DNA of 39,526 nt, from positions 1 through 39,526 of the forward strand of contig JACAEF010000049.1 in the NCBI GenBank assembly GCA_013388985.1. The letters are read 5' to 3'. The notes beneath the pieces were generated by a model that worked only from the letters and a program-made list of their open reading frames with translations, searched no databases and had not been told where the DNA came from. Shown here piece after piece: positions 6,293-36,190 of the stretch. Every line of letters starts with the position of its first letter. The first letter of the stretch is position 1. A program made the position numbers and the translations under genes. Source of the DNA: Rhodocyclaceae bacterium. GTDB lineage: Bacteria; Pseudomonadota; Gammaproteobacteria; Burkholderiales; Rhodocyclaceae.

Positions 6293-6317
6293 GTGCCGTG
6301 CCGCCAGCGCCGAGTTT
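6293..6317 (+). repeat. 25-bp dispersed motif, copy 1
   Basis: Matches GTGCCGT-N3-GCCAGCGCCGA-N-TTT at all fixed positions. It lies between the rplM promoter and the divergent OsmC gene. It is the only intergenic copy not placed at a gene 3' end. Confidence 0.85.
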
Positions 6318-6386
6318 CTCGTGGATGGATCAGCCATCGCGCGGCCGGCTACAATCGAGGCCACAGGATTCTAAAGGAGGTCACAG

Positions 6387-6809
6387 ATGTTGGAATGCAC
6401 GGTACATTGGCAGCCGCGGGGGATGAGCTTCGTCGCGGAAACCGGTTCCGGGCACATGGTGGCGATGGACGGCGCGCCCGAGGCCGGCGGCCGCAACCTG
6501 GCACCGCGTCCCCTCGAACTGTTGCTGGCCGGCACCGGCGGGTGTACTGCCTTCGACGTGGTGTCGATCCTGAAGAAGTCACGCCAGGACATCACCGATT
6601 GCGCCGTCAGGATCACGGCCGAACGCGCCACAGAGGACCCCAAGGTGTTCACGCGCATCGACCTGCACTTCGTCGTCAAAGGCCGCGGGCTGAAACCCGA
6701 GGCGGTCGAACGCGCTGTCAAGCTCTCCGCCGAGAAATACTGTTCGGCCTCGATCATGCTGGGCAAGACGGCCCAGATGCATCACTCTTGGGAAATCATC
6801 GACGACTGA
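6387..6809 (+). CDS. OsmC family peroxiredoxin-like protein (YhfA type)
   Basis: OsmC-fold thiol protein, probably reducing organic hydroperoxides in the cytoplasm. The 140-residue protein has the two family cysteines C53 (GTGGCTAFD) and C119 (EKYCSAS), so the catalytic pair is intact. The PLELLLAGTGGC segment is closest to the E. coli YhfA branch, whose physiological role is less defined than Ohr/OsmC. A very strong ribosome-binding site (AAAGGAGG) lies seven bases upstream. Its stop codon directly abuts that of the convergent coq7 gene with no spacer. Confidence 0.9.
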   Translation: MLECTVHWQPRGMSFVAETGSGHMVAMDGAPEAGGRNLAPRPLELLLAGTGGCTAFDVVSILKKSRQDITDCAVRITAERATEDPKVFTRIDLHFVVKGRGLKPEAVERAVKLSAEKYCSASIMLGKTAQMHHSWEIIDD

Positions 6810-7436
6810 TCAGAGCCAGTAAGCGGTCGTCGTCATCACTTTGGCAGCCAACTTCATCGCCCCCTTGGCCAGCGGCGGTAGCTCGGCCGCGCCGAGACTC
6901 ACCGCCATCTTCGTGTGGGCCATCTCGTCGGCTTTCATCTGGTCGATGATCGCCTGCGAGCGCTGATCGGCGGCCGGCCATTGGCTCAGATGCCCTTCCA
7001 GGTGCGCCTCGACCTGCCGTTCGGTTTCCGCGACGAAGCCGAGACTGACCGGATCCCCCAGGCGGCCGGCGATCGCGCCGATCGTCCAGGCGCCAGCATA
7101 CCAGAGCGGATTGAGCAGACTCTTGCGGCCGCCCAGCTCCTCGATGCGCCGCTCGGTCCAGTTCAGGTGCTCGGTCTCCTCCCAGGCAGCCCGCTTGAGT
7201 GCCTCGCGCACCGTGCTGCTCGCCGCGGTAAAGGCCTGGCCGGCATACAACGCCTGCGCGCAGACCTCGCCGACATGATTGATGCGCATCAGCGCGGCGG
7301 CATGCCGGCGTTCGGATTCGCTCAGCTCCGGCTCGGGCAGGGATTCACCGGGCATCGGCCGCTGCGTCGGCGCCGGGACGAACAGGGTGCGCAGCGCCTG
7401 ATCGAGTTGCAGAATGACAGGATCGAGAAGGCTCAT
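6810..7436 (-). CDS. coq7: 3-demethoxyubiquinol 3-hydroxylase (Coq7/UbiF-type)
   Basis: Di-iron hydroxylase that adds the C6 hydroxyl in late ubiquinone biosynthesis, membrane-associated. From the ATG at 7436 the protein has 208 residues. Predicted iron ligands are E57 (HVGEV), E87 and H90 (EETEH), E139 (AETER), and E171 and H174 (EMAH), so the two-repeat ferritin-like core is complete. A longer ORF extends upstream through the neighbouring gene's shadow frame and is not used. The gene runs after the CNP1-like gene with an 11-bp gap and ends tail-to-tail with OsmC. Confidence 0.95.
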
Positions 7437-7447
7437 TTCTTGGATCC

Positions 7448-7957
7448 TCAATTCACGCTGGGATGCTTGCCAAGCCGCAAGGCTTCGCGTCCCTCGTCGG
7501 GCGTTGCGATGGGAGTGCCGATCGGACAGAAGAAATCGTGCGCGAGCGCTGCGTGGTGGCGGTAGGTCGGCTTGTTCGTGATCGGCCGCCACTCGCTGCG
7601 CCGGGCCCAGGCCCAAGTCCCATCGGCATGTCCCGTCGCGTAGATTTTGTATTGGCCGGTGGCGCAACGCATGCCCTCAAAGGTTACGTTGGTGACCCCG
7701 CCTTGCGTGCGCACGACGAGGATGTAACGCACCACACCGTCCTTGCCGACGGCGAGGCTCGTGGTGTCGATGAAATAGCGGTGTGGCGTCGTGGCGCTCA
7801 CATAGAACTCGCGCAAGTTCGCTTCCTTGGGAAATTCGGGAAGCTGCGGCGTTTCCTCTTCCCATTTGGGGGCATCGGGGTCCTCGTCGGCAAGCAGGCC
7901 GGCCGAGGCGGTGCCGGTGACGCAAAGCGCGACGGAGATCAGCAAAAGGCGTCTCAT
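7448..7957 (-). CDS. CNP1-like family periplasmic protein
   Basis: 169-residue protein of unknown function. A signal peptide (about 1-19, ending TASA) is followed by a region with W/E/P-rich start and the phrases [14 protein letters not shown] and RSEWRPI that resemble the CNP1-like family. Two cysteines (about C116 and C148 in the mature part) could pair in the periplasm. It overlaps the end of rppH by four bases (ATGA) and is therefore translationally coupled to it. Function is not known to me. Confidence 0.75.
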
Positions 7958-8502: not shown

Positions 8503-8615
8503 GGTGAAACCCCAAACTGATTGTCTGGACGGGATTGTTCCACATTCGCCGGGTCGAGGAAAGCCGGTCGGTGGGTAAAATCCGCAGTCCGTTGTCAGAC
8601 CAAGGAAATTCCGCC

Positions 8616-10343
8616 ATGCGCGCCAGCCAGTTCTTCATCAACACCCTCAAGGAAGCCCCCGCCGATGCCGAAGTCGTCTCGCACAAGCTGATGACGCGCG
8701 CCGGCATGATCAAGAAGCTCGCCGGCGGCATCTACACCTACATGCCGATGGGACTCAGGGTGATCCGTAAGATCGAGGCGATCATCCGCGAGGAGATGAA
8801 CCGCGCCGGCGCCATCGAGTTGTTGATGCCGATCGTGCAGCCGGCCGAACTGTGGCAGGAGACGGGGCGCTGGGACAAGATGGGGCCGGAACTGCTGCGC
8901 GTGAAGGACCGCCATCAGCGCGATTTCGTGATCCAGCCCACGTCCGAGGAAGTGATCACCGACATCGCCCGCAGCGAAATCCACAGCTGGCGTCAACTGC
9001 CGAAGAACTTCTATCACATCCAAACCAAGTTCCGCGACGAACGCCGGCCGCGCTTCGGCGTGATGCGCGGGCGCGAATTCACGATGAAGGATGCCTACTC
9101 CTTCGACCGTGATGCCGCCGGCGCCGAAAAGAGCTATCAGGCGATGTACGCCGCCTATGTGAAGATCTTCGAGCGCCTCGGCCTGAAATTCCGCGCCGTG
9201 CGTGCCGACACGGGAGCGATCGGCGGCTCGCTCTCCCACGAGTTCCAGGTGATCGCCGACACCGGCGAGGATGTGCTGGTGTATTGCCCGGATTCCGATT
9301 ACGCCGCCAACATCGAGCTCGCGGAAGCGCTGCCGGCCAGTGCCGTCCGGCCAGCGCCGACTTTGGCGATGCAAAAGGTCGCCACGCCGAACACCACGCG
9401 CTGCGAGGATGTCGCGAAGCTCCTCGGCGTGCCGCTCGAGCAGACCGTGAAGTCGATCGTGCTCGCCGTCGACACGCCGCTCGGCCCGGAGCTTTGGCTG
9501 CTCCTGGTGCGCGGCGACCACGAACTGAATGAAGTCAAGGCCGGCAAGCTCAAAGGCCTCGATCAGGGCTTCCGTTTCGCCACCGAGCCGGAGATCATCG
9601 ACCACTTCGGCTGCCCGCCGGGCTATCTGGGACCGCTCAATACCCAGAAACCGGTCAGGATCGTCGCCGACCGCACCGTCGCGAACATGGCCGATTTCAT
9701 CTCCGGCGCCAACGAGATCGGCTTCCACCTCCAAGGCATCAACTGGGGGCGCGATCTGCCGGAGCCCGACCTCGTCGCCGACATCCGCAACGTCGTCGCC
9801 GGCGACCCTTCGCCCGACGGCAAGGGCACACTCGCGATCCAGCGCGGCATCGAGGTCGGCCACGTCTTCTACCTCGGCACCAAGTATTCAGCGGCGATGA
9901 ACTGCAGCTATCTCGACGAAAACGGCAAGCCGCAGCTGATGGAGATGGGCTGCTATGGCATCGGCGTCACGCGCCTGGTCGGCGCGGCGATCGAGCAGAA
10001 CCACGACGAGAAGGGCATCATCTGGCCGGATGCGATCGCGCCGTTTACCGTAGTGATCTGCCCGGTCGGTTGGGGCAAGTCGGAGGCCGTGCGCCAGGCG
10101 GCGCTCGACCTGTACGAAAAGCTGGTCGTCTCGAACATCGACGTGATCCTCGACGACCGCGACGAGCGACCCGGCGTGATGTTCGCCGACTGGGAGCTGA
10201 TCGGCGTGCCGCATCGCGTCACTTTGGGCGAGCGCGGGCTCAAGGAGGGCATGGCCGAATACCAGCATCGCCGCGACGCGGCGGCCACCAAGGTGCCGTT
10301 GGCGGAGATCGCGGCGTTCGTGCGCGGCAGGGCATGCGTCTAG
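8616..10343 (+). CDS. proS: Prolyl-tRNA synthetase
   Basis: Charges tRNA-Pro; class II synthetase of the long bacterial type with an editing (INS) domain between motifs 2 and 3. From the ATG at 8616 (AAGGA ribosome site, [13 protein letters not shown] start) the protein has 575 residues. Motif 2 is [17 protein letters not shown] and motif 3 lies in [14 protein letters not shown] longer frame from 8535 has no family support. Residues S242-L250, at the start of the insertion domain, are encoded by a copy of the dispersed 25-bp motif. The stop overlaps the start of the next gene by 10 bp. Confidence 0.97.
9340..9364 (+). repeat. 25-bp dispersed motif, copy 2 (inside proS)
   Basis: All fixed positions of the motif are present within proS. 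Here it is read as A-V-R-P-A-P-T-L, a different reading frame from the copies in engB and comF. Confidence 0.85.
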
Positions 10344-10939
10344 CGCTGCTGGTCCTGCTGGCCTGTCTCGCAACGCAGGCCCGTGCCGGCGCCCAGAAAT
10401 ACGAGCCGCTCGCCGCCAGCGTGCAGGCCGCATTGCATGCGGCGATCGCCGATCGCGCTGCGCCGGAGCCGCAGTTTTCCAGCATCGAGGAAAAGATCGA
10501 CTGGCTCACCGAGATGTCGCGCCGCTTGGCGCGGCGCATGCCCGATCGCGCAGCGCGGCTCGAATTCCTCAAGACCGTGCGCTATGAAGCCCAACGCGCC
10601 GGCCTCGACCCGCAGCTCGTGCTGGGGCTCATCGATGTGGAGAGCGGCTTTCGCAAATATGCCGTCTCGACGGCCGGCGCGCGCGGCTACATGCAGGTGA
10701 TGCCGTTCTGGGTGGGGCTGATCGGTAATCCGGAACACAATCTGTTCCATCTGCGCACCAACCTGCGCTACGGCTGCACGATCCTGCGCCACTATCTCGA
10801 CCTCGAGAACGGCGATCTCTTTCGCGCGCTCGGCCGTTACAACGGCAGCCTCGGCCGGCCCGAATATCCGAACATGGTGCGCGCGGCATGGGAGAAACGC
10901 TGGAACTGGGGCCCGCGCGTCATTCAGGCGCGGCAGTAG
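10334..10939 (+). CDS. Lytic transglycosylase (SLT domain), secreted
   Basis: Probable periplasmic peptidoglycan lytic transglycosylase. From the ATG at 10334 the 201-residue protein starts with a signal peptide (about 1-19, [14 protein letters not shown]). The C-terminal SLT domain carries the catalytic glutamate in [12 protein letters not shown], then the family phrases [12 protein letters not shown] and [13 protein letters not shown], and Asn-Gly-Ser in [11 protein letters not shown]. It overlaps proS by 10 bp and is presumably cotranscribed with it. The last G of its TAG stop is the first base of a dispersed motif copy. Confidence 0.92.
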
Positions 10940-10963
10940 TACCGTTTCGCCAGCGCCGATTTT
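10939..10963 (+). repeat. 25-bp dispersed motif, copy 3
   Basis: Begins on the G of the lytic transglycosylase TAG stop. It has A instead of G at position 3 and otherwise fits the consensus. Its T-tail leads directly into the palindromic element at 10964. Confidence 0.8.
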
Positions 10964-12653: not shown

Positions 12654-12676
12654 GGGGCTTGGTGTAGACTCCGGAT

Positions 12677-14781: not shown

Positions 14782-14825
14782 TGTCATGCTGCCTCGCCGC
14801 GGCGGAAAAGGCGGGCTATTCCGTC

Positions 14826-14854
14826 TTTACAATAAGGCGCCGGCAAGGCATTAT
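14826..14854 (+). promoter_or_regulatory. candidate sigma70 promoter for pilC-pilD
   Basis: TTTACA (14826-14831), 17-bp spacer, CATTAT (14849-14854), about 30 bp before the pilC start. The -10 is a four-of-six match. A promoter is expected here because pilC is not coupled to the gene upstream. Confidence 0.4.
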
Positions 14855-14883: not shown

Positions 14884-16098
14884 ATGGCAACAGCCAAACG
14901 GGATGATTTCCTGGCAATCTACAATTGGGAAGGCAAGGACAAGAGTGGCAAGCTGATCCGCGGCGAGCTGCGCGCCGCCTCGCCGACGGTCGTGCGCACC
15001 ACGCTGCGCCGCCAGGGCATCCTCGTCACCAAGGTCGCCAAGCAGTCCTTTCGCAGCCGCGGCAAGGTCACCGACAAGGACATCACCTTGTTTACGCGCC
15101 AGATGGCGACGATGATGAAATCGGGCGTGCCGCTCTTGCAAGCCTTCGACATCGTCGCCAAGGGGGCGAGCAATCCGGCACTGACCAAGCTGATCCTCGA
15201 CATCAAGACCGATGTGGAGACGGGCGCGGCGCTGAACCAGGCATTCCGCAAGCATCCGCTCTATTTCGAGCCGCTCTACTGCAATCTGGTCGAAGCCGGC
15301 GAGCAGGCCGGCATCCTCGATCAGGTGCTCGACCGTCTGGCCACCTACAAGGAGAAGACCCAGGCGCTCATCGCCAAGATCAAGAGCGCGCTGTTCTACC
15401 CGATCTCGGTACTGGTCGTCGCCTTCATCGTCACCGCGGTGATCATGATCTACGTCGTGCCGCAGTTCAAGAAGGTGTTCACCAGCTTCGGTGCCGACCT
15501 GCCGGGGCCGACCCTGGTGGTGATGGCGATTTCCGACTACTTCGTCGAATACTGGTACATCATCTTCGGTGTGCTGTTCGGTGGCCTCTACGCCTTCTTC
15601 TATTTCTGGAAACGTTCCGAGAAGATGCAGATGTTCATGGATCGGCTGGCGCTGCGCCTGCCGATCTTCGGCGAAGTGATCCGCAAGGCCACGCTCGCGC
15701 GCTGGACGCGCACCTTGTCGACGATGTTCGCGGCGGGCGTGCCGCTCGTCGAGGCGCTCGATTCGGTCGGCGGCGCCTCGGGCAACTACATCTACCGCGA
15801 GGCGACGAAGCAGATCAAGGCGGAAGTCAGCACCGGTTCGAGTCTGACGGTGGCGATGCAGAACACCGGCGTGTTCCCGAACATGGCAGTCCAGATGATC
15901 TCGATCGGCGAGGAATCCGGCCAGATCGACGCGATGAGCGGCAAGGTCGCCGATTTCTACGAGCAGGAGGTCGATGACGCGGTCGCGCGGCTCTCCAGCC
16001 TGATGGAGCCGATGATCATGGTCGTGCTTGGCGTGCTCATCGGCGGCATCATCATCGCGATGTATCTGCCGATCTTCAAGCTCGGCGCGGTCGTCTGA
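14884..16098 (+). CDS. pilC: Type IV pilus inner-membrane platform protein PilC
   Basis: Platform protein that transmits ATPase motion (PilB/PilT) to pilin polymerisation. The 404-residue protein has two GspF domains (about 70-195 and 275-395), with repeated RQMATMMKSGVPLLQAFD and RTLSTMFAAGVPLVEALD signatures, and three membrane segments (about 170-195, 220-240, 375-395). A GGAG ribosome site precedes the ATG. It is followed by pilD three bases later. Unusually pilB is not directly upstream; a CorC-type gene is. Confidence 0.96.
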   Translation: MATAKRDDFLAIYNWEGKDKSGKLIRGELRAASPTVVRTTLRRQGILVTKVAKQSFRSRGKVTDKDITLFTRQMATMMKSGVPLLQAFDIVAKGASNPALTKLILDIKTDVETGAALNQAFRKHPLYFEPLYCNLVEAGEQAGILDQVLDRLATYKEKTQALIAKIKSALFYPISVLVVAFIVTAVIMIYVVPQFKKVFTSFGADLPGPTLVVMAISDYFVEYWYIIFGVLFGGLYAFFYFWKRSEKMQMFMDRLALRLPIFGEVIRKATLARWTRTLSTMFAAGVPLVEALDSVGGASGNYIYREATKQIKAEVSTGSSLTVAMQNTGVFPNMAVQMISIGEESGQIDAMSGKVADFYEQEVDDAVARLSSLMEPMIMVVLGVLIGGIIIAMYLPIFKLGAVV

Positions 16099-16101
16099 CC
16101 G

Positions 16102-16950
16102 ATGGCCAGTCTCGATCCGACGACGCTCGCCGTCGTCTGCGGCGTGTTCGGGCTCTTGATCGGCAGCTTTTTGAACGTCGTCATCCACCGGCTGCCGTTG
16201 ATCATGGAGCGCGAGTGGCAAATGCAATGCGCCGAGCTTGCCGGCAAGCCCCAGCCTTCTTTCGAGCCGCTCTCGCTGCTTGCGCCGCGTTCGCGCTGCC
16301 CGCACTGCGGCCACATGATCGGCGCGCTGGAAAACATCCCGATCCTCAGCTATCTGCTGCTCAAAGGGCGCTGCAAGGGCTGCGGCAAGCCCATCGGCGT
16401 GCGCTATCCGCTGGTCGAGGCGGCGACCGGCCTGCTCTTCGGCTATGCGGCCTGGCGCTTCGGCGTCACGCTGGCCCTGGGCGGCGCCCTGTTGTTCATC
16501 GCCGCACTGATCAGCCTGACCTTCATCGATGCCGACACCCAGCTGCTGCCGGACGACATCACCCTGCCGCTCCTCTGGGCCGGGCTGCTGCTCAACTTAA
16601 ACGGTACCTTCGCGCCGCTCGCCGACGCCGTTATCGGCGCGGCGGCCGGCTATCTGGCGCTTTGGCTGGTGTATTGGGCCTTCAGGCTTGCCACCGGCAA
16701 GGAAGGCATGGGCTACGGCGACTTCAAGCTGCTCGCCGCGATCGGCGCCTGGTTCGGCTGGCAGATGCTGCCCCTGGTGATCCTGCTCTCCTCGCTGGTG
16801 GGAGCCGTGGTCGGCATCGCCTTGATCGCGCTGGCGCGGCACGGCCGCAACGTGCCGATCCCGTTCGGTCCTTACCTCGCCGCCGCGGGCGTCATCGCCC
16901 TGTTCTGGGGCAAGCCGCTCAATCAGGCCTGGCTGGGCCTGCTCTATTGA
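16102..16950 (+). CDS. pilD: Prepilin peptidase / N-methyltransferase PilD
   Basis: Cleaves the leader from type IV prepilins and related pseudopilins and methylates the new N-terminus. The 282-residue membrane protein is full length. The N-terminal cytoplasmic zinc site has C66, C69, C91 and C94 (CPHCG, CKGCG). The aspartyl protease residues are in FIDADTQLLPDD (D143/D145) and GYGDFKLL (D207). One PilD would be expected to process both T4P and MSHA pilins, which links it to the msh block at 29.8-36 kb. Confidence 0.97.
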   Translation: MASLDPTTLAVVCGVFGLLIGSFLNVVIHRLPLIMEREWQMQCAELAGKPQPSFEPLSLLAPRSRCPHCGHMIGALENIPILSYLLLKGRCKGCGKPIGVRYPLVEAATGLLFGYAAWRFGVTLALGGALLFIAALISLTFIDADTQLLPDDITLPLLWAGLLLNLNGTFAPLADAVIGAAAGYLALWLVYWAFRLATGKEGMGYGDFKLLAAIGAWFGWQMLPLVILLSSLVGAVVGIALIALARHGRNVPIPFGPYLAAAGVIALFWGKPLNQAWLGLLY

Positions 16951-17305: not shown

Positions 17306-17941
17306 GTGAAAGCCCTGAAAAAATACTTCATCACCGGGCTCCTGATCTGGATCCCGCTGGTGATCACCGTCTGGGTCGTGTCGGCGATCATCGGCGCGAT
17401 GGATCAGTCGCTCAATCTGCTGCCGCAGGCGATCCACCCGGACAGGCTGCTGGGCGTCCACATCCCGGGTGTCGGCACCGTGCTGACGCTGGTGGTGATC
17501 CTGCTCACCGGCCTGGTGACGGCCAACATCATCGGCCAGAAGCTGGTGCGTTTCTGGGAAGGCATCCTGGCGCGCATCCCGATCGTCAAGTCGATCTATT
17601 ACAGCGTCAAGCAGGTCTCCGACACGTTGTTTTCCTCCTCCGGCCAGGCGTTCCGCAAGGTGCTGCTGGTACGCTATCCGCATCCGCAGGCCTGGTCGGT
17701 CGCCTTCATGACCGGCACGCCGGCGCTGCAGATCGCCGAGCTCCTTCCCGACGAGCACGTCAGCGTCTTCATCCCGACCGCCCCCAGCCCGGTCAACGGA
17801 TTCTTCTTCTTCGTCAGGAAGAGCGACACCATCGAGCTCGACATCAGCGTCGACGATGCGCTGAAATACATCGTCTCGATGGGCGTCGTCCCGCCCTTGC
17901 CCCGCCATCCGAACCTCACCGGACGCGCCCAGAACGAATGA
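17306..17941 (+). CDS. DUF502 family membrane protein
   Basis: 211-residue inner-membrane protein of unknown function. Two membrane segments are visible (about 8-30 and 57-78), followed by the family phrase RIPIVKSIYYSVKQVSDTL and a soluble C-terminal half rich in beta strands (AELLPDEHVSVFIPTAPSPVNG). The start is the GTG at 17306, 8 bp after fmdB. The fmdB-DUF502-aspS order is recurrent in betaproteobacteria. A copy of the dispersed motif lies 14 bp past its stop. Confidence 0.9.
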   Translation: MKALKKYFITGLLIWIPLVITVWVVSAIIGAMDQSLNLLPQAIHPDRLLGVHIPGVGTVLTLVVILLTGLVTANIIGQKLVRFWEGILARIPIVKSIYYSVKQVSDTLFSSSGQAFRKVLLVRYPHPQAWSVAFMTGTPALQIAELLPDEHVSVFIPTAPSPVNGFFFFVRKSDTIELDISVDDALKYIVSMGVVPPLPRHPNLTGRAQNE

Positions 17942-17954: not shown

Positions 17955-17979
17955 GTGCCGTCTTGCCAGCGCCGACTTT
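17955..17979 (+). repeat. 25-bp dispersed motif, copy 4
   Basis: Occupies most of the gap between the DUF502 stop (17941) and the aspS start (17998). It matches all fixed positions. Confidence 0.85.
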
Positions 17980-17997: not shown

Positions 17998-19796
<1,799 letters not shown>

Positions 19797-19797
<1 letters not shown>

Positions 19798-21085: not shown

Positions 21086-21499
21086 ATGAACGAACTGAGA
21101 CGCTATGACCCGTTCGATGATTTCTTCCGTGGTTTCTTCGTGCGCCCGGTCGAGATGGGCAAGGGTGTCGAAGCCCCGGACATGAAGGTGGATGTCAAGG
21201 AGCAGGAGAAAGCCTATCTGATCCATGCCGAAATGCCGGGCATCAAGAAGGAAGACATCCACGTCACGATCGACGGGCCGGTCGTTTCGATCAGCGCCGA
21301 GCGCAAGGAAGAAAAGGAAGAGAAGGAAGGCGAGCGTGTGCTGCGCTCCGAACGCTATTTCGGCAAGGTGTCACGCAGCTTCAACCTCGGGCAGGACATC
21401 GATGACGCGGCCGCCACCGCGAAATTCACCGATGGCGTGCTCGAACTGACGCTGCCGAAGAAGGCCGTGGCGCAGGCGAAGCGCCTGACGATCGAGTAA
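21086..21499 (+). CDS. Small heat shock protein, Hsp20 family
   Basis: 137-residue alpha-crystallin-type holdase. A short N-terminal arm with FDDFFRGFF is followed by the crystallin domain (about 38-130: MKVDVKEQEKAYLIHAEMPG, DGPVVSISAERKEE, and the terminal GVLELTLPKK). The C-terminus ends RLTIE, giving a weak I-x-I-like anchor. A strong AAGGAGG lies seven bases upstream of the ATG. The 57-bp gap before it contains CTTGAA, the -35 of sigma32 promoters, but no convincing sigma32 -10 at the right spacing, so heat-shock control is likely only by family. A motif copy and a terminator follow. Confidence 0.93.
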   Translation: MNELRRYDPFDDFFRGFFVRPVEMGKGVEAPDMKVDVKEQEKAYLIHAEMPGIKKEDIHVTIDGPVVSISAERKEEKEEKEGERVLRSERYFGKVSRSFNLGQDIDDAAATAKFTDGVLELTLPKKAVAQAKRLTIE

Positions 21500-21505: not shown

Positions 21506-21530
21506 AAAGTCGGCGCTGGCGAGACGGCAC
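21506..21530 (-). repeat. 25-bp dispersed motif, copy 5
   Basis: Six bases after the hsp20 stop, on the minus strand. It matches the consensus at every position and lies between the gene and its terminator hairpin. Confidence 0.85.
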
Positions 21531-21542: not shown

Positions 21543-22481
<939 letters not shown>

Positions 22482-22482
<1 letters not shown>

Positions 22483-23126
22483 TGCGCTCGCATCGCGTCT
22501 GGCTGTTCGATCTCGACAACACGCTCCACGACGCCAATCCGCACATCTTTCCGGCCATCAGCCGCCTGATGAGCGAATACGTCGCCCAGCAGGTCGGCCT
22601 CGACGAGGCAGCGGCACAGCAGCTGCGCGACCACTACTGGCGGCGCTATGGGGCGACCTTGACGGGGCTGGTAAGGCATCACGGCGTCGATCCGCATCAC
22701 TTCCTCGCCGAGACGCACGACTTTCTCGCCGACCTGCCACGCATGCTCGTCCATGATCCGGCGCTGCGCCATGTGCTGAAGCGGCTGCCGGGCCGCAAGA
22801 TCGTGTTTTCCAACGCGCCGCGGCGCTACGTCGAGGCCGTGCTCGAATCGATCGGCATCCGGCCGCTGATCGATGGCGTATGGTGCATCGAGCGCCTGCG
22901 TTTCACGCCCAAGCCGCATCTCGAAGCCTTCCGGCGTCTGCTGCATGCGGAAAAGCTCGATCCGCGCCGCTGCATCCTCGTCGAGGACACGCCGGCCAAC
23001 CTCGCCGCCGCCAAGCGGCTGGGCATGACGACGGTGTTGGTGAGCCGCGCTGCGCGAGTGCCCACTTACGTCGATAGGCGCATAAAATCCGTGCTCGATT
23101 TGCCGAGACTGAGACTGACCCGATGA
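22482..23126 (+). CDS. HAD-family pyrimidine 5'-nucleotidase
   Basis: 214-residue haloacid dehalogenase-like phosphatase with motif I FDLDNTLHD (9-17), motif II serine in VFSNAPRRY, motif III lysine in KPHLEAFRRLL and motif IV LVEDTPANL. The insertion pattern and argB-slmA neighbourhood fit the Pyr-5-nucltdase/SDT1-like group. Substrate is inferred from family. It overlaps slmA by four bases (ATGA). Confidence 0.88.
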
Positions 23127-23695
23127 CCGCCCACGGCGACCGCAAGCTCCATATCCTGCAAGCCATCGCCGCGATGCTGGAGAACCCGTCCGGCGAGAAG
23201 ATCACCACCGCAGCCCTGGCCGCGCGCCTTAAGGTTTCCGAAGCCGCGCTGTATCGCCATTTCCCGAGCAAGGCGCGTATGTTCGAGGGCCTGATCGAGT
23301 TCATCGAGAACGCGATCTTTTCCGTCGTCGGCCAAATCGTCGCGGAAGAACCCAATGGCCTGCGGCAGGCGGAATTGATGCTGGCGGCGAGCCTGCGCTT
23401 CGCGGGCATGAATCGCGGCCTGGCGCGCCTGATGATCGGCGACGTCCTGGTCCATGAACATCCGCGCCTGCAAGCCCGGATCAACCAGCTCTTCGAGCGG
23501 CTGGAAGCCTCGCTGAAACAGGCGCTGAAGATCGCCGTGGCACAGGGCGCGCTGCCCGCCGGGCACGATTGCGCCGCGCACGCCGACCTGCTCGTCTGCT
23601 ACCTGCTCGGCCGCCTGCAGCGCTTCGTCAAGAGCGGCTTCCAGGACGACCCGCTCGCCCATTGGGCCAGCCAATGGCCTTTGCTCGCGAGTTAG
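23123..23695 (+). CDS. slmA: Nucleoid occlusion factor SlmA (TetR fold)
   Basis: 190-residue TetR-like DNA-binding protein that, in E. coli, binds SBS sites and antagonises FtsZ over the nucleoid. The N-terminal HTH (about 28-55: KITTAALAARLKVSEAALYRHFPSKARMF) and the C-terminal all-helical domain with GLARLMIGDVLVHE match SlmA. The argB-nucleotidase-slmA order supports the call over a generic TetR. The gene ends in TAG whose G begins a dispersed motif copy, which then reaches the stop of the convergent hemB. Confidence 0.9.
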   Translation: MTAHGDRKLHILQAIAAMLENPSGEKITTAALAARLKVSEAALYRHFPSKARMFEGLIEFIENAIFSVVGQIVAEEPNGLRQAELMLAASLRFAGMNRGLARLMIGDVLVHEHPRLQARINQLFERLEASLKQALKIAVAQGALPAGHDCAAHADLLVCYLLGRLQRFVKSGFQDDPLAHWASQWPLLAS

Positions 23696-23719
23696 TGCCG
23701 TCCTGCCAGCGCCGATTTT
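23695..23719 (+). repeat. 25-bp dispersed motif, copy 6
   Basis: Shares its first base with the slmA TAG stop and ends immediately before the hemB stop codon, so the whole slmA-hemB intergenic region is the motif. Confidence 0.85.
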
Positions 23720-25505
<1,786 letters not shown>

Positions 25506-29113: not shown

Positions 29114-29136
29114 CGGCGCATTATCCGCGATCGACC

Positions 29137-29832
29137 ATGACTGTGAGAACGCCCGTCTCCGCCCTGCTCGACATTCTTCTGCCGCGTGCCTGCCTGCTCT
29201 GCGGCGCGCGCGCCCACGCTGTGCTGTGCGAGGGCTGCGCAGCCGACCTGCCTTGGCTCGATGCACCGCTCTGCCCGGTGTGCGCCACCCCCTTGGCCGC
29301 ACCGGCCCAAGCCTGTGGCGCCTGCCTGAAAGCGCCACCCGCCTTCGCTGCGAGCCTCGCTCCGCTGCGCTACGCCTTTCCCGTCGATGGACTGGTGCAG
29401 GATCTCAAGTTCGGGTGCCGTCTCGCCAGCGCCGACTTTTTCAGCCGCTGCATGCTCGCCGGCCCCCGCCCGGCAGGCGATCTGCTGATGCCGGTGCCTT
29501 TGTCGCGGCAGCGCCTGCGCGAGCGCGGCTTCAACCAGGCGCTGGAAATCGCGCGGCCGCTGGCGCGGGCGCTGGGATTGCCGCTCGATACCACCGGCCT
29601 TGTGCGCGAGCGCGACACGCTGCCGCAAAGCCGCCTACCCTGGCGCGCCCGGCAAGGCAACGTGCGCTATGCCTTCACTTGCCGCCGCGATCTCACCGGC
29701 CTGACGGTAATCGTCGTCGACGACGTGATGACCAGCGGCGCCACGCTCGAGGCCGTGGCGCGCACGCTCAAGGCCCACGGCGCCCGTCGCGTCGTCAATT
29801 GGGTGGCGGCGCGGACGGTGAGGACGCCCTGA
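29137..29832 (+). CDS. comF: ComF/GntX family phosphoribosyltransferase-like protein
   Basis: 231-residue ComF family protein. ComF is needed for natural transformation in several bacteria; the E. coli homologue GntX/YhgH is needed to use DNA as nutrient. The N-terminal double zinc finger has eight cysteines (C19, C22, C31, C34, C46, C49, C60, C63). The C-terminal PRTase domain carries the PRPP loop VIVVDDVMTSGAT (191-203). C94-F101 (CRLASADF) is encoded by a dispersed motif copy. Its 3' end overlaps convergent mshN by 38 bp. Confidence 0.93.
   Translation: MTVRTPVSALLDILLPRACLLCGARAHAVLCEGCAADLPWLDAPLCPVCATPLAAPAQACGACLKAPPAFAASLAPLRYAFPVDGLVQDLKFGCRLASADFFSRCMLAGPRPAGDLLMPVPLSRQRLRERGFNQALEIARPLARALGLPLDTTGLVRERDTLPQSRLPWRARQGNVRYAFTCRRDLTGLTVIVVDDVMTSGATLEAVARTLKAHGARRVVNWVAARTVRTP
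29415..29439 (+). repeat. 25-bp dispersed motif, copy 8 (inside comF)
   Basis: Perfect consensus copy in sense orientation within comF, encoding CRLASADF at residues 94-101. Confidence 0.85.
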
Positions 29833-30931
29833 GTTTTTCCTCGACGCTGCCTTGCATCTCCACGGGCAGAGTGCCCGACTCGCGCGCCCTGGCGAATGCC
29901 GCCCGGGCCTCGTCGCCGCGGCCCGAGGCTTCGAGCGCCAGTCCCAGACCGAACCACCAGCGTCCCTCGTTGGGGCGCAGGCGCAGCGCGGCCTGATAGT
30001 GCTGCGCGGCCTCGGCCTGGCGCTGGCGTTTCTGCAGCAGGAAGGCGAACAGGGCATGGAAGTCGGCATCGTTCGCTGCCTGCGCGGCGTATTTGTCCAG
30101 CGTCTTCAGCGCGGCATCCGTATCGCCTTCCTCATACTGGAGCCGCGCCAGAAGCGTCGCCCAGCCGGTGCGCGTCGGATCGAGCGCCAGTCCGGCCTGG
30201 GCGACCTGCTTCACCTCATCCCATTGCCGGCTGTTGGCCAGCACCGCGAGCAGCGCCTGACGCGCCTTGGCGTGCTGAGGATCGAGCTCCAGCGCGCGGC
30301 GCAGCGCGGGCAATGCCGTGGCGGAGTCGCCCTGGCCCGCCGCCTGCATGCCCTTGCGGTATTCCGCCTCGGCGATCTCGCGCGTCGGCGGGGTTTTCGG
30401 CTGCTTGTCGATCCGCGCTTCGCCGCCGGGCGGTATCGCCGGCTTTGCCTCGACCGGCTCGGTCGCGGCCGTCGCGGCTCGCACCGCCTGCTCGGGCGGC
30501 GGCGCTGGAACAGACCTGGCCGCAGCGGCTGGAACGGGCGCTTTCGGCTTCTCGGCCGCCGGCTTGGCACTCGCCGGCCTGGGTATCGGTGCTGGCTGCG
30601 ACGTCGCGGCCGGTGCGACAGGCGCAGCCGGTGGCGGTGCCGGTTCAGCGCCGGCCTGCATCTCCACGGCGGCGGATGCCACAGCCGCCGGCGCAGCTTT
30701 GGGCGGCGGGGTGTTTTCGGCCAACATTGGAGCCTCGGGCGACGGCTGCGCGGCAAAGAACCAGACAGCCACGGCGCCCACGAGCAGGCCGAGGGCGAGC
30801 AGCCCCCACGGCTGCATGCTGCGGCGCGGCTCGGGCGGCAGGGTGCGCAAGCCGGCGGGTAGCCCGGCGCGCTCCTGGCGGCTCGCCTGACGCGCATCGA
30901 GATCGCGCAACATCTGGTTGATCACGCTCAT
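29795..30931 (-). CDS. mshN: MSHA biogenesis protein MshN (TPR protein)
   Basis: 378-residue inner-membrane protein. The N-terminus MSVINQMLRDLDAR is typical of MshN/ExeB-like partners. A membrane segment (about 42-60) leads to a long Ala/Pro/Glu-rich periplasmic spacer (about 65-185), then at least four TPR-like repeats (about 190-355). TPRs probably bind the secretin or peptidoglycan. It is the last gene of the msh run, 14 bp after mshM with an AAGGAGG site, and ends in overlap with comF rather than continuing to mshE. Confidence 0.9.
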   Translation of the reverse strand: MSVINQMLRDLDARQASRQERAGLPAGLRTLPPEPRRSMQPWGLLALGLLVGAVAVWFFAAQPSPEAPMLAENTPPPKAAPAAVASAAVEMQAGAEPAPPPAAPVAPAATSQPAPIPRPASAKPAAEKPKAPVPAAAARSVPAPPPEQAVRAATAATEPVEAKPAIPPGGEARIDKQPKTPPTREIAEAEYRKGMQAAGQGDSATALPALRRALELDPQHAKARQALLAVLANSRQWDEVKQVAQAGLALDPTRTGWATLLARLQYEEGDTDAALKTLDKYAAQAANDADFHALFAFLLQKRQRQAEAAQHYQAALRLRPNEGRWWFGLGLALEASGRGDEARAAFARARESGTLPVEMQGSVEEKLRASSPSAPPPN

Positions 30932-30945
30932 CGGGTCCTCCTTCG

Positions 30946-31782
30946 TTACCAGGCCCACCAGGGCTTGTCGCGCACGCCTTCGGTGTCGCGCGCCGCCGCC
31001 TTGATGTGCCGCGGCTCGACCTGCAGCCGCCCCTCGCCGAAAGCCAGCAGCAGGGCCTTGTTGGCGAGGATGTTGATGAGCCGCGGCGTGCCGCCGGAGC
31101 GATGGTAGAGCGCCCGCAGCGCGCGTGGGGTAAACAGCGCCTCGCCGCGGTAGCCGGCCGTCGCGAGGCGCTGTTCGACATAGCGTCTCACCTCTGCGGC
31201 ATCGAGGTGCTGCAGGCGGCAGGAAAAGGCGATGCGCTGGCGCAGCTGGCGGGCGGAATGCCGCGCCAGCATCTCGTCGAGCTCCGGCTGGCCGAACAGC
31301 ACGATGTGCAAGAGCTTGCGCTTCTCGGTTTCGAGATTGGACAGCAGGCGCAGGCTCTCCAGCGTCACGCGCGGCATGGTCTGCGCTTCGTCGATGCACA
31401 GCACCACCTTGCGTCCGGCGGCGGCGAGATCGAGCAGGCGCTGGTTGATGCGCTTGACGAGCCGCGCGATGTCCTTGGCGCCCTCGCCCGCCCCCAGCTC
31501 ATCGGCGATTTCGAGCAACAGCTCGCGCGGGTCCATCTGCGGGTTGGGGATGTAGGCGGCCAGCCAGTCGGCGTCCAATTCGTTCAGCAGGCTGCGGCAC
31601 AGCAGGGTCTTGCCGGTGCCGACCTCGCCGACCACCTTGATGAAGCCCTCGCCGCTGGCGAGCGCGAAATGCAGCAGGTTGATGCCTTCGCGGTAGCTGC
31701 GGCTCGGATAGGCGAACTCGGTATCTGGCGTGATGCCGAAGGGCGGCTGGTTCAGGCCGAAGTGGGCAAGATAGACGCTCAC
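30946..31782 (-). CDS. mshM: MSHA biogenesis protein MshM (ExeA-type AAA ATPase)
   Basis: 278-residue AAA+ ATPase of the ExeA/GspA type, thought to help insert or position the secretin in the cell wall. Walker A is GEVGTGKT (52-59), Walker B is VVLCIDEAQ (126-134), and the start MSVYLAHFGLNQPPFGITPD is the family hallmark. It lacks the C-terminal peptidoglycan-binding part of full ExeA, as MshM does. Overlaps mshL by four bases. Confidence 0.94.
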   Translation of the reverse strand: MSVYLAHFGLNQPPFGITPDTEFAYPSRSYREGINLLHFALASGEGFIKVVGEVGTGKTLLCRSLLNELDADWLAAYIPNPQMDPRELLLEIADELGAGEGAKDIARLVKRINQRLLDLAAAGRKVVLCIDEAQTMPRVTLESLRLLSNLETEKRKLLHIVLFGQPELDEMLARHSARQLRQRIAFSCRLQHLDAAEVRRYVEQRLATAGYRGEALFTPRALRALYHRSGGTPRLINILANKALLLAFGEGRLQVEPRHIKAAARDTEGVRDKPWWAW

Positions 31783-33482
31783 TGCAACGGCACGTCGATG
31801 GCGGGCAGGTCGAAATTGCGGACACGCTCGCCGCTTTGCCGCAGATCCTCCACCCAGCCGCGATCGTCCTTGATGATCGTCGGCTTCAACAGGATCACCA
31901 GCTCGCGCTTTTCCAGGCTGCTGCCACGCTGGCCGAACAGCACGCCCGCCGGCGAGGAGACGGTGCCCGGCAGGCCGTTGCGGTTGCTGGTCTGGCTTTG
32001 CGTCATCAGGCCACCGATCGCGACGATGTTGCCGTCTTGCACGCGCACGATGCTGTCGGTCTCATTCACGCTCGAAGTAGCCAGCGGCAGGCGGTACTGG
32101 CCGAGCGAGCCGAGATCGACGACCTTCTCTTTTTCGGTCACGGCGCTGATCGCCGGATGGATGTGCAGGATGATCTTGCCCTCTTCGTCGATCTGCGGCG
32201 TCACGTCCAGAGAGATGCCGGAAAAATAGGGCTGCAGCGTCAGGTTCGGCGTCGAAGTCGTGCCGGCGGCGGTGCTGGTCGTCGTGGAGGTCACGTTGGT
32301 GACGAACAGCTCGTCGGTGCCGACCTTCAGCACGGCCTTCTGGTTGTTGAGCGTCGCGATGCGCGGACTGGAGAGCACCGAGACCTGGCCCTGGGTTTCG
32401 AGGAAGCTCAGCAGCGCGGCGAAGTTGGCGGTCTGGAAGGCCAGTCCGACGAAGCCATTGCCGAGCGCCGAGGCCGCCAGCGAGCCGGCCACGCCCGGCA
32501 GCGCGGTGAGGTCGTTGCTGCCGAGCGCGCTGACGCTGCCGATGGCGCCGAGCGTGGTGCCGGGCTGCAACACGCCCAGGCTCGCCCGGTGGTTCGCGCC
32601 ATTGAAAGAAGACCAGTTGATGCCGTTCTGGAAGCGCTCGGAGAGCTGCACTTCGAGAATCTTGGCCTCGAGCATCACTTGGCGCTCGACCATCACCTGG
32701 GTGGCCTTCAGATACTGCTCGACGGCGCGCAGCTCGGCCGGATAGGCGCGCACGACGACGACGCCGGAGAGGCCATTGACCACCACGCTGCGGCCTTCGC
32801 CGCTGACGATGGTCGCCAGCGAGGTTTGCAAGTCACGCCAGAAATCGGTATCGGATTGGGTCTGCACCCGGCTGGTCAGGCTGCCGGTCGTCCGCGTGCC
32901 GCCTGCGACGGTCTGCACGGGCGTGGCCGTCGCCGTCGAGGTCGGCGCCGTCTCGTTCGTGGCGATCGAACTCGAAGTGACGCGCAGCTCGGTCGCCCCC
33001 TGGCGGCGGCTGGCCAGATAGTTCACCTGGAAAACGCGCGTCTGCAGCGTGTTCGGCTGGATCGCGATGCGGTTGCCCTTGATCGTGAATTCGTAGCCAT
33101 AGAGCTCGCGGATCGATTCGAGCGCCTCCCGGACCGTCACGTCCTTCAGATTGATGGTAATCGTGCCGGTGACTTCCGGGCCGACCAGCATGTTGTAGCG
33201 TGTGCCGCTGACGATGGCCATGAACACTTGCGCCGCCGGCGCATTGACGACGGAAAGATCGAAGCGCGGCTCGGCCTGCTCCGGCTTCGGCAATTCGATG
33301 CTCAAGGGCGGCAGCAACGCTTTTTCGACCGTATCGGCGGACTTGCGTTGATTTACTGCTTGTGCCAGCTCTTCGCCAATGCGCTCGCGTACCCGATCGG
33401 GACGCGCCGGCGGCGCCGCGCAAGCCGCCAGCACGAGCGGTATGGCCGCCAGCCACACGGTTCGCAGGATGGTCCGGTTCAT
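31779..33482 (-). CDS. mshL: MSHA biogenesis secretin MshL
   Basis: 567-residue outer-membrane secretin pore for the MSHA pilus. A lipoprotein signal peptide ends in the lipobox LAAC (about 17-20). A secretin N-terminal/STN region (about 75-150) follows, with FDLSVVNAPAAQVFMAI and GYEFTIKGNRIAI. A low-complexity Thr/Ser/Ala loop comes next (about 160-200). The secretin core is C-terminal (VLSSPRIATLNNQKAVLKVG, and VRVQDGNIVAIGGLM). It overlaps mshK by four bases. Start at 33482 chosen for the lipoprotein signal and GGGAAGG site. Confidence 0.95.
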   Translation of the reverse strand: MNRTILRTVWLAAIPLVLAACAAPPARPDRVRERIGEELAQAVNQRKSADTVEKALLPPLSIELPKPEQAEPRFDLSVVNAPAAQVFMAIVSGTRYNMLVGPEVTGTITINLKDVTVREALESIRELYGYEFTIKGNRIAIQPNTLQTRVFQVNYLASRRQGATELRVTSSSIATNETAPTSTATATPVQTVAGGTRTTGSLTSRVQTQSDTDFWRDLQTSLATIVSGEGRSVVVNGLSGVVVVRAYPAELRAVEQYLKATQVMVERQVMLEAKILEVQLSERFQNGINWSSFNGANHRASLGVLQPGTTLGAIGSVSALGSNDLTALPGVAGSLAASALGNGFVGLAFQTANFAALLSFLETQGQVSVLSSPRIATLNNQKAVLKVGTDELFVTNVTSTTTSTAAGTTSTPNLTLQPYFSGISLDVTPQIDEEGKIILHIHPAISAVTEKEKVVDLGSLGQYRLPLATSSVNETDSIVRVQDGNIVAIGGLMTQSQTSNRNGLPGTVSSPAGVLFGQRGSSLEKRELVILLKPTIIKDDRGWVEDLRQSGERVRNFDLPAIDVPLQ

Positions 33483-33820
33483 TTTTTTCCCTTCCTCACA
33501 GCCTTCTTTTCGATGCCGGGCGTCAGATAGAGGGTTTCGACGCCTTGCGGGCCGCGCAGCACGACGAAATCCTCGCCGATGCGGATCAGCCGCGCCTCGC
33601 CGACCTTGCCGCCGAGCTCGACCAGCGCGCCATCGATCAGCGCCGCGGGCCGGCCCGTCTTGCGCCGGATGATCGACTGCAATCCGCTCCCGGCTTCCGC
33701 TGTAGCCGCGCCGGATGCCGCCGTGGGATTGGTATCGAGGGGCGGCCGTGTCGGATCGGCCCCCTGTGCCAGCGCCCAGGCACAACACAACGACAAAAAC
33801 AGCATCAGACGACCAGCCAT
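33479..33820 (-). CDS. mshK: MSHA biogenesis protein MshK
   Basis: 113-residue periplasmic protein, the PilP/GspC-like member of the cluster. A signal peptide (about 1-19, LSLCCAWALAQG) is followed by DPTRPP, the phrase shared with PilP/GspC-type proteins, and a small beta domain (RKTGRPAALIDGALVELGGKVG). Starts inside mshJ (16-bp overlap) and overlaps mshL by four bases. Confidence 0.85.
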   Translation of the reverse strand: MAGRLMLFLSLCCAWALAQGADPTRPPLDTNPTAASGAATAEAGSGLQSIIRRKTGRPAALIDGALVELGGKVGEARLIRIGEDFVVLRGPQGVETLYLTPGIEKKAVRKGKK

Positions 33821-34476
33821 CGCGCATCCAGACTCAAGGTGTATATCGTCAGCGTCAGCTCGCTGACCGGATACTGCCGCACGGTGAGACTGATCCCGCC
33901 CCGCAGCAGCCTCTGGGGACTGGCATCGAGTTCGGCGGCGTAGGCGAGCAGGTCGGGGTAGCTTCCTGCCAGCTTGAGCTCGATGCCGTGCTGGTAGAGA
34001 TTCCCCTCCAGAGGCGCCGCCCCATCGGACGCCGCCGGCGCGGCGACGAGCGGACGCGGCGGCAGCGTTTTCATGCTCAAGAGCGTCAGGCCACGATGCC
34101 GGGCCAGCACCCTTTGCAGCAGGACCGGCATCTGGACGGGCGAGACCAAGGTGCTGCCATAAGCGGCGATCTCGCGTTCGGTAAGCGCGAGCTCCCCCTG
34201 CAGGCGTTGCAAGGCGGCGCGATTCGCCGCGTCGGGATCGCTGCCGCGTGCCGCGAGAGCGGCCGCCTGCTGTTCGAGATGGCTTCGCTCCTCCCGCAGC
34301 TGGACGAGCCGGTTTTGCAGCTGCTTTGCCTGTAGCTGCGCCGGTTCGATCCACAGGACATGGCCGCCGAGGAGGATGCCCAAGACCAGGGCCAGCGAGA
34401 TCAACAGCCGTTCGCGCGGCCGCAGCGCGGAAAAGCGCGCGCTCCAGTGTTGCCAGCGGGCCTGCATGGCGCTCAT
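33805..34476 (-). CDS. mshJ: MSHA biogenesis protein MshJ (PilO/GspM-like)
   Basis: 223-residue bitopic inner-membrane protein. Short cytoplasmic N-terminus, one membrane segment (about 25-43, LLISLALVLGILLGGHVLW), a coiled coil (about 48-110) and a ferredoxin-like periplasmic domain. That layout is the alignment-complex PilO/GspM topology. Position between the PilN-like gene and mshK supports MshJ. Confidence 0.88.
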   Translation of the reverse strand: MSAMQARWQHWSARFSALRPRERLLISLALVLGILLGGHVLWIEPAQLQAKQLQNRLVQLREERSHLEQQAAALAARGSDPDAANRAALQRLQGELALTEREIAAYGSTLVSPVQMPVLLQRVLARHRGLTLLSMKTLPPRPLVAAPAASDGAAPLEGNLYQHGIELKLAGSYPDLLAYAAELDASPQRLLRGGISLTVRQYPVSELTLTIYTLSLDARWLVV

Positions 34477-35144
34477 CCCCGCCCTCCGCCGACGGCGGGC
34501 GCCGCGTCCTCGCGCTTGATTGGCACCAGCGTGAACTCATGAAAAGGCGGCAGGCGGGATGCCGTCGCAGGGCTGCCGGCGGCTGGCTGTTCGGGCTTGC
34601 CTTCGGCGATGTTCAGCGCCGCGAATGCCCGGCCGCGCAGGGCGGGCTCACGATTCAGACGCTGGATGTATTCGGGCAGCAGGGCAGGGTCGGTGGTACG
34701 ACCGCGAATTTCCATGTCGTTGCTCGCCGCATCCCAGACGAAGCCGGTGATCCAGACGCCCGGCATCGCCAGGTTGGCCAGTGCGCGCAAGGGCTCGGCG
34801 AAAGCCGGGGTGTCGGCGACCAGCCGCTGGCGCAGGGTTTGCAGCACGGCACCGCGTGCTTGCGCCAGCCGCTGGGCGGCAGCCAGTTCCTGCTCCAGCC
34901 GCGCATCGGGTTTCCGCTCCGCGACCTGTTGTCCGAGGGTCTGCACCTGCGAGCGCAGTTCTTTCACTCGCGCCTCCTCTGCCGTCACCTGAGCACGGAG
35001 TCCGGGCAAATCGCCGCGCGCCAGCCAGCCTGCGCCGATGACGATGAGCAGCAGCGCCACGGTGGCCAGCCCGACGTTGGCGAGCGTCAGCCAGTCGCGC
35101 TTCTTGCGCAGGGCGGGGTCGAAGAGATTGATCTGCCCGGCCAT
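34473..35144 (-). CDS. PilN-like MSHA assembly protein (MshI2)
   Basis: 223-residue bitopic protein. Its N-terminus MAGQINLFDPALRKKRDW carries the INLF/INLL box with which PilN docks on PilM. One membrane segment (about 25-43), a coiled coil (about 50-100) and a PilN-type periplasmic domain with VWITGFVWDA follow. Start at 35144; the gene begins two bases after the mshI stop and overlaps mshJ by four bases. Confidence 0.87.
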   Translation of the reverse strand: MAGQINLFDPALRKKRDWLTLANVGLATVALLLIVIGAGWLARGDLPGLRAQVTAEEARVKELRSQVQTLGQQVAERKPDARLEQELAAAQRLAQARGAVLQTLRQRLVADTPAFAEPLRALANLAMPGVWITGFVWDAASNDMEIRGRTTDPALLPEYIQRLNREPALRGRAFAALNIAEGKPEQPAAGSPATASRLPPFHEFTLVPIKREDAAPAVGGGRG

Positions 35145-35145
35145 G

Positions 35146-36069
35146 TCACTCTCTGAGCGCGGCCCCGAGCGCACGCCAGGCATCGGCTTGCCGCGCCGGC
35201 TCGAGCAGATGGGGCGTTTGCGTCAGATCCATCACCGTGGCGAGGTCCGCGCTCGCCACCGGCAGCGAAAGGTTGTCACGCAGATAGTCCACGAAAGTCG
35301 CTGCCTGGGCATGCGGCATCGGGCCGACCAGCAGGCGTGCGACATTGATCGCGCCATAGTTGCGGTCGAAGCCATCGAGGGTGCGCTGGATGTCGAGCAG
35401 CACGCGCTCGTGGAGCACCTCGGCTTGAGGCCCGGCGAGCGCCGCGGCGCCGATGTCGATGTGCCGCGTCATATAGAGCTCGCCCCGGTAGGTGACGACG
35501 AGCGTGCCATCCTGGCGTTCCAGGAACAAGAATGCGAGTCCGCGGTTGGGCTCCTCGAACAGGGCCGCCAAATTTCGCAACGCCAGCTCGGGAATGTCGA
35601 TGGCGGCGATTTCGACCTTCGTTTCCTGGAATTGCCAGATGAGCGGCTGCAGCACCTCGTGACGGGCAAGCACCACCCAGGCCTGGGCCGGACGGTTGCC
35701 GACCGGGGGGATGTCGAGCAGATCGATGCCGGCGCGCTCGACGGGGAAATCGACCATCTCCTTCACCCGCCAGCGCAGCGCTTCGCGCAGCTCTTCGCGC
35801 GTCATCCCCTCGGCATTGGTAGGCAGTTCCACCTGCAAGAGCTGATATTGGCCTTCGCCGAGCAGCGTCACGCAGCGCTGGCGGCCGAGGCGGTGCGCAC
35901 TCCTCAACCGCTTGAGGATACCGGCGACGCTGCCCTCGCGTGCGTAACCCTCGCACACGCGCACCACCGGTCTGCCGCCGCGTTCGACCTGCGCGACGGT
36001 CACCCGATCGGCACCGAAATCCACCGCCGTCCATGCGCCTTTGCTCGACTTGCCCTCTCCCAATGCCAT
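35146..36069 (-). CDS. mshI: MSHA biogenesis protein MshI (PilM-like)
   Basis: 307-residue cytoplasmic actin-like protein of the PilM type, which organises the inner-membrane alignment complex. The opening AWTAVDFGADRVTVAQVERGG resembles the phosphate-1 loop; EMVDFPVERAGIDLLD and a C-terminal LLVGP region follow. It is first in the msh run. Upstream on the minus strand a TACACT lies about 40 bp before the ATG, a possible -10 without a well spaced -35. A start at 36108 is possible. Confidence 0.88.
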   Translation of the reverse strand: MALGEGKSSKGAWTAVDFGADRVTVAQVERGGRPVVRVCEGYAREGSVAGILKRLRSAHRLGRQRCVTLLGEGQYQLLQVELPTNAEGMTREELREALRWRVKEMVDFPVERAGIDLLDIPPVGNRPAQAWVVLARHEVLQPLIWQFQETKVEIAAIDIPELALRNLAALFEEPNRGLAFLFLERQDGTLVVTYRGELYMTRHIDIGAAALAGPQAEVLHERVLLDIQRTLDGFDRNYGAINVARLLVGPMPHAQAATFVDYLRDNLSLPVASADLATVMDLTQTPHLLEPARQADAWRALGAALRE

Positions 36070-36165
36070 ATCCGGGTCCACCCTACCGTGTCCCCGGAGT
36101 GTAGCCATCCGCACATTACGGCAAGGGCGGATAAGAGGTCGAAAATCCCGCCAGTTGACGAGGGG

Positions 36166-36190
36166 GTGCCGTGTCGTCAGCGCCGACTTT
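36166..36190 (+). repeat. 25-bp dispersed motif, copy 9
   Basis: Three bases beyond the pccA stop, oriented towards it. It has T for C at position 12 and otherwise fits all fixed positions. Confidence 0.8.

Follow-up and report, generated by a model that had tools for sequence, protein, structure and literature searches.

A 25-bp bipartite motif as a probable DNA uptake sequence in a clade of probable Rhodocyclaceae

Which bacteria select their own DNA at uptake by means of a short motif? The section of a 2025 paper that deals with this question names the Neisseriaceae and Pasteurellaceae as the sole families known to do so (PMC12616744). The DNA uptake sequence (DUS) of the Neisseriaceae is given in part of one source as GCCGTCTGAA or a dialect with a CTG core (PMC3630211); in the relevant passages it is abundant in core genomes, occurs in both coding and intergenic DNA, and has dialects that follow phylogeny, and islands lack it (PMC3630211, PMC7371117), as stated for the genomic islands of Neisseria (PMC7371117). 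The uptake signal sequence (USS) of the Pasteurellaceae has the cores AAGTGCGGT and ACAAGCGGT (PMC12616744) and is described, in the parts of the sources concerned with it, as abundant and genome-wide (PMC7811141, PMC12616744). The subject of this report is a 25-bp bipartite motif, GTGCCGT-N3-GCCAGCGCCGA-N-TTT, which occurs in nine copies in a stretch of 39,526 nucleotides (the window) from a Rhodocyclaceae bacterium, contig JACAEF010000049.1. Judged from sequence data, the motif is probably a DNA uptake sequence of a clade of probable Rhodocyclaceae.

The nine copies reported in the initial annotation are all present exactly where it placed them; seven match GTGCCGTNNNGCCAGCGCCGANTTT perfectly and two (at 10939 and 36166) have one mismatch, and 100 dinucleotide shuffles of the window contain none. 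The estimate of about 19 invariant positions is confirmed by the count among the nine copies (19 of 25), and their flanks appear unrelated, as had been noted. Variation had been placed at positions 8-10 and 22. One refinement concerns positions 8-10, which do not vary freely: the 37 perfect copies from the window's own genome (G000) are pyrimidine-rich there (C at frequencies of 0.68, 0.68, and 0.86) and have no A. A does occur at these positions in some of the other genome copies listed. Among the same 37 copies, position 22 is mainly C and position 26 is never A, and the consensus is approximately GTGCCGTCCCGCCAGCGCCGACTTT.

Is the motif a property of the window or of the genome? When up to three mismatches are allowed, the whole G000 assembly (a 2.90-Mb draft) has 592 copies, or one per 4.9 kb, against none for the reversed pattern used as a control. 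The expectation of hundreds of genomic copies is thus borne out; the count is not near chance, and copies are found outside the window. The two strands carry 277 and 315 copies (P = 0.13), so that the same-strand excess pointed out earlier (seven of nine) is true of the window but is a local bias only. In a 427-kb sample of G000, consisting of the window and 20 stretches, sites with zero to three mismatches number 44, 30, 16, and 2, and those with four to seven number 4, 9, 26, and 154. These two groups with a sharp gap between them indicate a true class of sites that is held near the consensus.

Among 199 genomes of the same family, G000 included, 205-712 copies were found in 21 genomes belonging to six genera. 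Two genomes are intermediate (G045 with 73 copies and G023 with 30) and the remaining 176 have 15 or fewer. Every drawn member is motif-rich in the genera g1 (six genomes), g2 (five), g46 (four), and g64 (four); the motif-rich genera g9 and g38 are represented by one drawn genome each. Twelve genomes were reached via named loci: 'Rhodocyclaceae bacterium RC263', whose ProS is 88% identical to that of the window, has 324 copies, none were found in the two genomes of Azoarcus, the two of Thauera, or the single one of Aromatoleum, and the rest have at most two. In the other families of the order, no genome of the 386 searched exceeds five copies (slightly shorter pattern, two mismatches), and ten of 368 other genomes in a class-wide draw have one or two copies (one mismatch). 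Such stray copies outside the family are more numerous than our chance expectation. A BLAST search of plasmids and phages with a 30-base query gave weak matches only, the best with E values of about 0.1 and about 0.05.

The word differs in its letters from genus to genus, as far as the copies listed and the samples go. Positions 1-3 are GTG in G000 and GCG (as GCGCCGT) in 14 of the 20 copies listed from G008, and in RC263 the place of GTGCCGT is mostly taken by GCACCGT (best ~100 of its 324 copies). Twelve copies in 59 kb of G064 and G148 start with TCG (6), GCG (3), CCA (2), or TCA (1), and none with GTG. In G045, 19 of the 20 copies listed carry T at position 18. The inner blocks are common to all variants, and the variation of the first bases by genus appears to be like that of uptake-sequence 'dialects'.

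When orthologous sites are compared by flank anchors, 18 of the 19 sites in G080 are found again in G019, as are 18 of 21 in the reverse direction. The window sites recur at seven of nine places in G080, eight of nine in G019, and seven of nine in G126, where flank identity is 67-81%. Where both genomes have a copy, fixed positions differ in 18 of 420 cases (4%, a figure somewhat lowered by the selection of copies with at most three mismatches), whereas the flanks differ in 257 of 1109 (23%). At 11 of the 18 sites shared by G080 and G019 the orthologous interval measures exactly 25 bp, and at four others it is 22-31 bp; copies have therefore mostly been retained in place and not inserted.

Copies are also scarce in DNA of atypical composition, which serves here as no more than a proxy for acquired DNA. 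In 5-kb bins, nine copies fall in 20 GC-atypical bins and 133 in 123 typical ones; without two islands that had been noticed as empty, the figures are eight copies in 16 atypical bins versus 133 in 119 typical bins (P = 0.008).

Where do the copies lie with respect to genes? With a simple gene caller of our own (90.5% coding), 47 of 92 copies in the 427-kb sample are inside genes, where ~81 would be expected, 44 are intergenic, and one is at an edge; the intergenic share is 44 of 91, compared with an expectation of 10. There are 16 copies in convergent gaps (1.2 expected), 24 in tandem gaps (5.4 expected), and four in divergent gaps (3.3 expected). Thus, copies are depleted in genes and prefer gene ends rather than promoter gaps.

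The initial annotation had read the motif as a recognition sequence kept by purifying selection and had raised the possibility of an uptake sequence. This proposal is supported by the genomic count, the dialects, the conservation at orthologous sites between diverged flanks, and the scarcity in atypical DNA. We infer that a receptor reads the motif and that DNA carrying it is taken up preferentially. Cells of the clade would import DNA via type IV pili, and a DNA receptor at the pilus tip would favour DNA bearing the word. Recurrent uptake and recombination of tagged DNA from kin would spread copies born by mutation and remove decayed ones, and the outcome would be ~200-700 copies that persist over core genes, are best tolerated between gene ends, and are missing from recently acquired DNA.

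It seems fairly likely that this is a third, independently evolved bacterial code for DNA uptake, in probable members of the Rhodocyclaceae, with a two-block 25-bp word much longer than those described, and possibly read by the PilE and FimT pilus-tip pilins, one block each. The Rhodocyclaceae are a mostly free-living family. No report of the motif was found in the searched literature on uptake sequences, a search whose coverage excluded most subscription journals and preprints; its half-words appeared in eight papers that, by their titles, treat unrelated subjects. If the proposal is true, this third lineage, with its word in at least six genera, with dialects, and with motif-poor relatives bearing the same pili, would allow a natural comparison of how uptake codes arise, what reads them, and what they are for. 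Little-studied bacteria would also be predicted to be transformable, and a tag for transforming them would be available.

Which proteins might take up the DNA? The window encodes a type IV pilus/type II secretion system (T2SS) platform protein of the PilC/GspF family (14884..16098, +), with strong E-values below curated cut-offs, which is a candidate part of an uptake machine. Next to it is a putative PilD-like type IV prepilin peptidase of the A24 family (16102..16950, +), and further downstream lies a ComF/GntX-family protein (29137..29832, +; below curated cut-offs) that may have a role in uptake. ComEC is found at E ≤ 1e-6 in 195 of the 199 family genomes, the window's own included, and is above the cut-off in 191. 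In G000, a PilE-type pilin matches Pfam ComP_DUS (E = 2.9e-11), with a FimT/GspH type beside it, adjoining a putative ispH; ComP_DUS is named for the DUS receptor and also matches what we take to be ordinary PilE. The host thus has type IV pilus and ComEC machinery, which is equally common in motif-poor relatives.

Attempts to find the receptor by co-occurrence did not succeed, as ComP_DUS, ComEC, and FimT fail to separate motif-rich from motif-poor genomes. A PilE C-terminus ending in CWVxxxGGxC was tried as a marker and is present in most motif-rich PilE, but in motif-poor genomes too. G020 was considered as a genome without the PilE/FimT pair, and its apparent lack turned out to be a gene-calling miss. 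Elsewhere in the window (29795-34476), an MshL-like secretin scores 249.1 bits, just under the cut-off of 250.2, and adjoins PEP-CTERM-associated ATPase-like, TPR, and T2SS M-like proteins, all below their cut-offs; on these sub-threshold matches, the region may be a second pilus-like locus.

Several observations weigh against an uptake sequence. The motif is much longer and, at one copy per 4.9 kb, much sparser than DUS or USS, and exact copies are scattered in unrelated families. ComP_DUS-type pilins above the Pfam cut-off occur in 184 of the 199 family genomes and FimT types in 186, motif-poor ones included in both cases, and neither pilin type is seen in G045 (73 copies) or G138 (460 copies), both of which are fragmented drafts. 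A single motif-rich group is compatible with the AspS tree (two label changes; 52% of the bootstrap trees show one group), whereas the ProS tree (26 of 30 rows used, four not extracted) splits the motif-rich genomes and forces three changes, perhaps because of ProS transfer. The two trees differ on whether the motif arose once or more often. In each G080/G019 direction, three of the 18 recurrences are less secure, as they depend on wide anchor intervals (224 bp or more, and 10 kb in one case). A slmA-like gene (23123-23695, +) and hemB (23720-24688, -) end 24 bp apart, and the sixth window copy (23695..23719, +) fills the gap between their stops; it is not at its place in G080, G019, or G126; since G019 and G126 have 11 bp between the anchors, an insertion or deletion took place here and not point changes.

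The evidence on acquired DNA has weak points of its own. Three regions of ~60 kb in total, namely a DISARM region and a prophage in G080 and a glycosyltransferase gap in G000, have no copies against 12 expected, but the DISARM and glycosyltransferase stretches were picked for their emptiness and the prophage as adjoining, so they serve as illustration only. The prophage lies at 1.82-1.84 Mb of G080, where ten of 25 called genes were tested and all match phage families, and the glycosyltransferase and related genes fill the longest gap between copies in G000 (20.9 kb on C33). A core/accessory comparison over 100 kb of G080 and G019 met no accessory block of at least 1.5 kb and so had no power. 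As for the DISARM region itself (G080:C1:1800001-1820000), it is a defence island with matches to DrmA, DrmB, DrmC, DrmD, and DrmMI, and has DUF2290 and helicase genes inside.

The main rival explanation is the binding site of a chromosome-organising, segregation, or nucleoid protein that needs many spread-out sites, which is unlikely but deserves to be weighed. Copies are indeed genome-wide, conserved, and spaced apart: none of 80 spacings between neighbouring copies is below 600 bp (P = 3e-5, exponential model), and a slmA-like gene is present in the window. However, the motif is not palindromic. Among 15 stretches sampled from the complete chromosome of G080, 14 contain copies and only the DISARM region is empty (0-6 copies each). 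There is no regional concentration, and the orientation of the copies is unlinked to GC skew (15/10 versus 16/12, P = 1.0), which also speaks against the orientation-dependent segregation signal that had been considered at the outset. The dialects by genus, the preference for gene ends, and the scarcity in atypical DNA fit an uptake sequence better.

The motif could instead be a mark of self for some other system, such as Chi-like recombination or a defence that spares tagged DNA. Copies are absent from the sampled phage and defence islands, as such a mark would have it. Yet no candidate reader was found, and Chi-type signals are short and strand-biased, which makes this quite improbable.

A signal at the RNA level, either a terminator or a 3'-end processing site, is marginally less probable still. 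The enrichment downstream of genes, above all in convergent gaps, and the final TTT are in its favour, and an RNA 3'-end signal was among the alternatives first offered. But roughly half of the copies are inside genes, 42 copies have the orientation of the gene and 29 the opposite one (P = 0.15), and the folding of intergenic copies is close to that of shuffled sequence (mean z of just -0.26 on one strand and -0.70 on the other); mixed orientation and near-shuffled folding make an RNA signal unlikely. The lack of close neighbours also means that inverted terminator pairs of the Neisseria type are absent from the sample.

Least probable of all is a small mobile repeat, either transposon-derived or like the repetitive extragenic palindromic (REP) elements, which are palindromic, extragenic, inserted units: high copy number, the clusters in some motif-poor genomes, and the absence of most of the word from the place of the sixth copy in G019 and G126 are compatible with it, but 47 of 92 copies are in genes, flanks are not shared, there are no close pairs, folding is weak, and, the sixth copy excepted, the interval stays at 22-31 bp at 15 of 18 G080-G019 sites.

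The other window copies have diverse settings. The first (6293..6317, +) lies in a divergent gap, with rplM (5717-6145, -) on one side and an osmC-like gene (6387-6809, +) on the other; it recurs with one mismatch in G080, G019, and G126, and its flanks have diverged in G080 and G019. Three copies are within genes and recur in all three genomes: 9340..9364 (+) in proS (8616-10343, +), 24996..25020 (-) in engB/yihA (24771-25505, -), and 29415..29439 (+) in the comF-family gene (29137-29832, +). So does 17955..17979 (+), between a DUF502 gene (17306-17941) and aspS (17998-19797). The convergent intergenic copy at 10939..10963 (+; one mismatch) overlaps the final stop base of a transglycosylase-domain gene (10334-10939, +) and is aligned in G080 and G019; in G126 it was found inside a wide anchor interval. 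The copy at 21506..21530 (-), between an HSP20 gene (21086-21499) and argB (21595-22482), is in G080, has three mismatches and a wide interval in G019, and is not in G126. The last (36166..36190, +; one mismatch) adjoins a biotin-carboxylase-type gene (36194-38185, -) at its stop and recurs in G019 and G126 but not in G080. Between hemB and engB, Rfam places an anti-hemB small RNA (RF02837) at 24797-24888 (+), with 57 bits against a gathering threshold of 49.5. The genome search reported one in-frame TGA within aspS in each of G148 (L381) and G064 (L385), both of genus g64, which was not seen in the local alignment.

Near-exact copies are clustered within tens of kilobases in some otherwise motif-poor genomes (L358 and L359 at 1.46-1.50 Mb of G083, and also L353, L354, and L360), perhaps in DNA acquired from tagged donors. 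In IMGVR_UViG_3300009945_000063 (L191), five copies lie at ~700-2500, four of them spaced at exactly 316 bp and one at 385 bp, in gene-less units bordered by GCCTAAC...GTTAGGC. These borders resemble what we take to be the form of integron attC sites, and the units look like integron cassettes carrying an uptake-like tag.

Do the motif-poor relatives have a code of their own? Word counts were made over 60 kb from each of 12 such genomes and 40 kb of G023. In a spaced-word scan the motif itself reached eight to nine copies in samples of G000 and G080, and the others gave three to seven, topped by GC-rich simple words. A plain 11-base scan brought out a local repeat in G044 and a count of nine in G060 (shuffled maximum of seven). 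No clear second code was seen in these samples, although sparse codes may escape such a scan.

How, then, does the motif compare with the known systems? As with DUS and USS, which number hundreds to thousands far above chance, its copies (592 against none for the reversed pattern) use both strands (277/315) and form dialects by genus. As in the Neisseriaceae, where the DUS receptor is ComP, there is a pilin (here PilE) that matches ComP_DUS. In contrast to DUS, which are 10-12 bp long and present in thousands of copies, the motif has 25 bp with ~20 fixed positions, other letters, fewer copies, and no inverted pairs in the sample; neither the DUS word nor a CTG-core dialect is in the consensus. 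Like the USS, it is abundant and genome-wide, and the layout of a core plus a T-rich tail is found in both. The USS has a 9-bp core and a spacing of ~1 kb, whereas the motif has two long, fixed GC-rich blocks, a single TTT, and a spacing of ~5 kb, and its consensus lacks both USS cores. The different letters and the length of 25 bp place it outside both known sets. FimT-mediated uptake, as in Legionella and others, offers a further parallel, as a FimT/GspH-type minor pilin adjoins PilE in G000; that uptake is not known to have a sequence preference, and the same PilE/FimT pair exists in motif-poor relatives. With scarcity in acquired DNA judged by proxy only, the motif behaves like DUS and USS on most of the features that can be tested.

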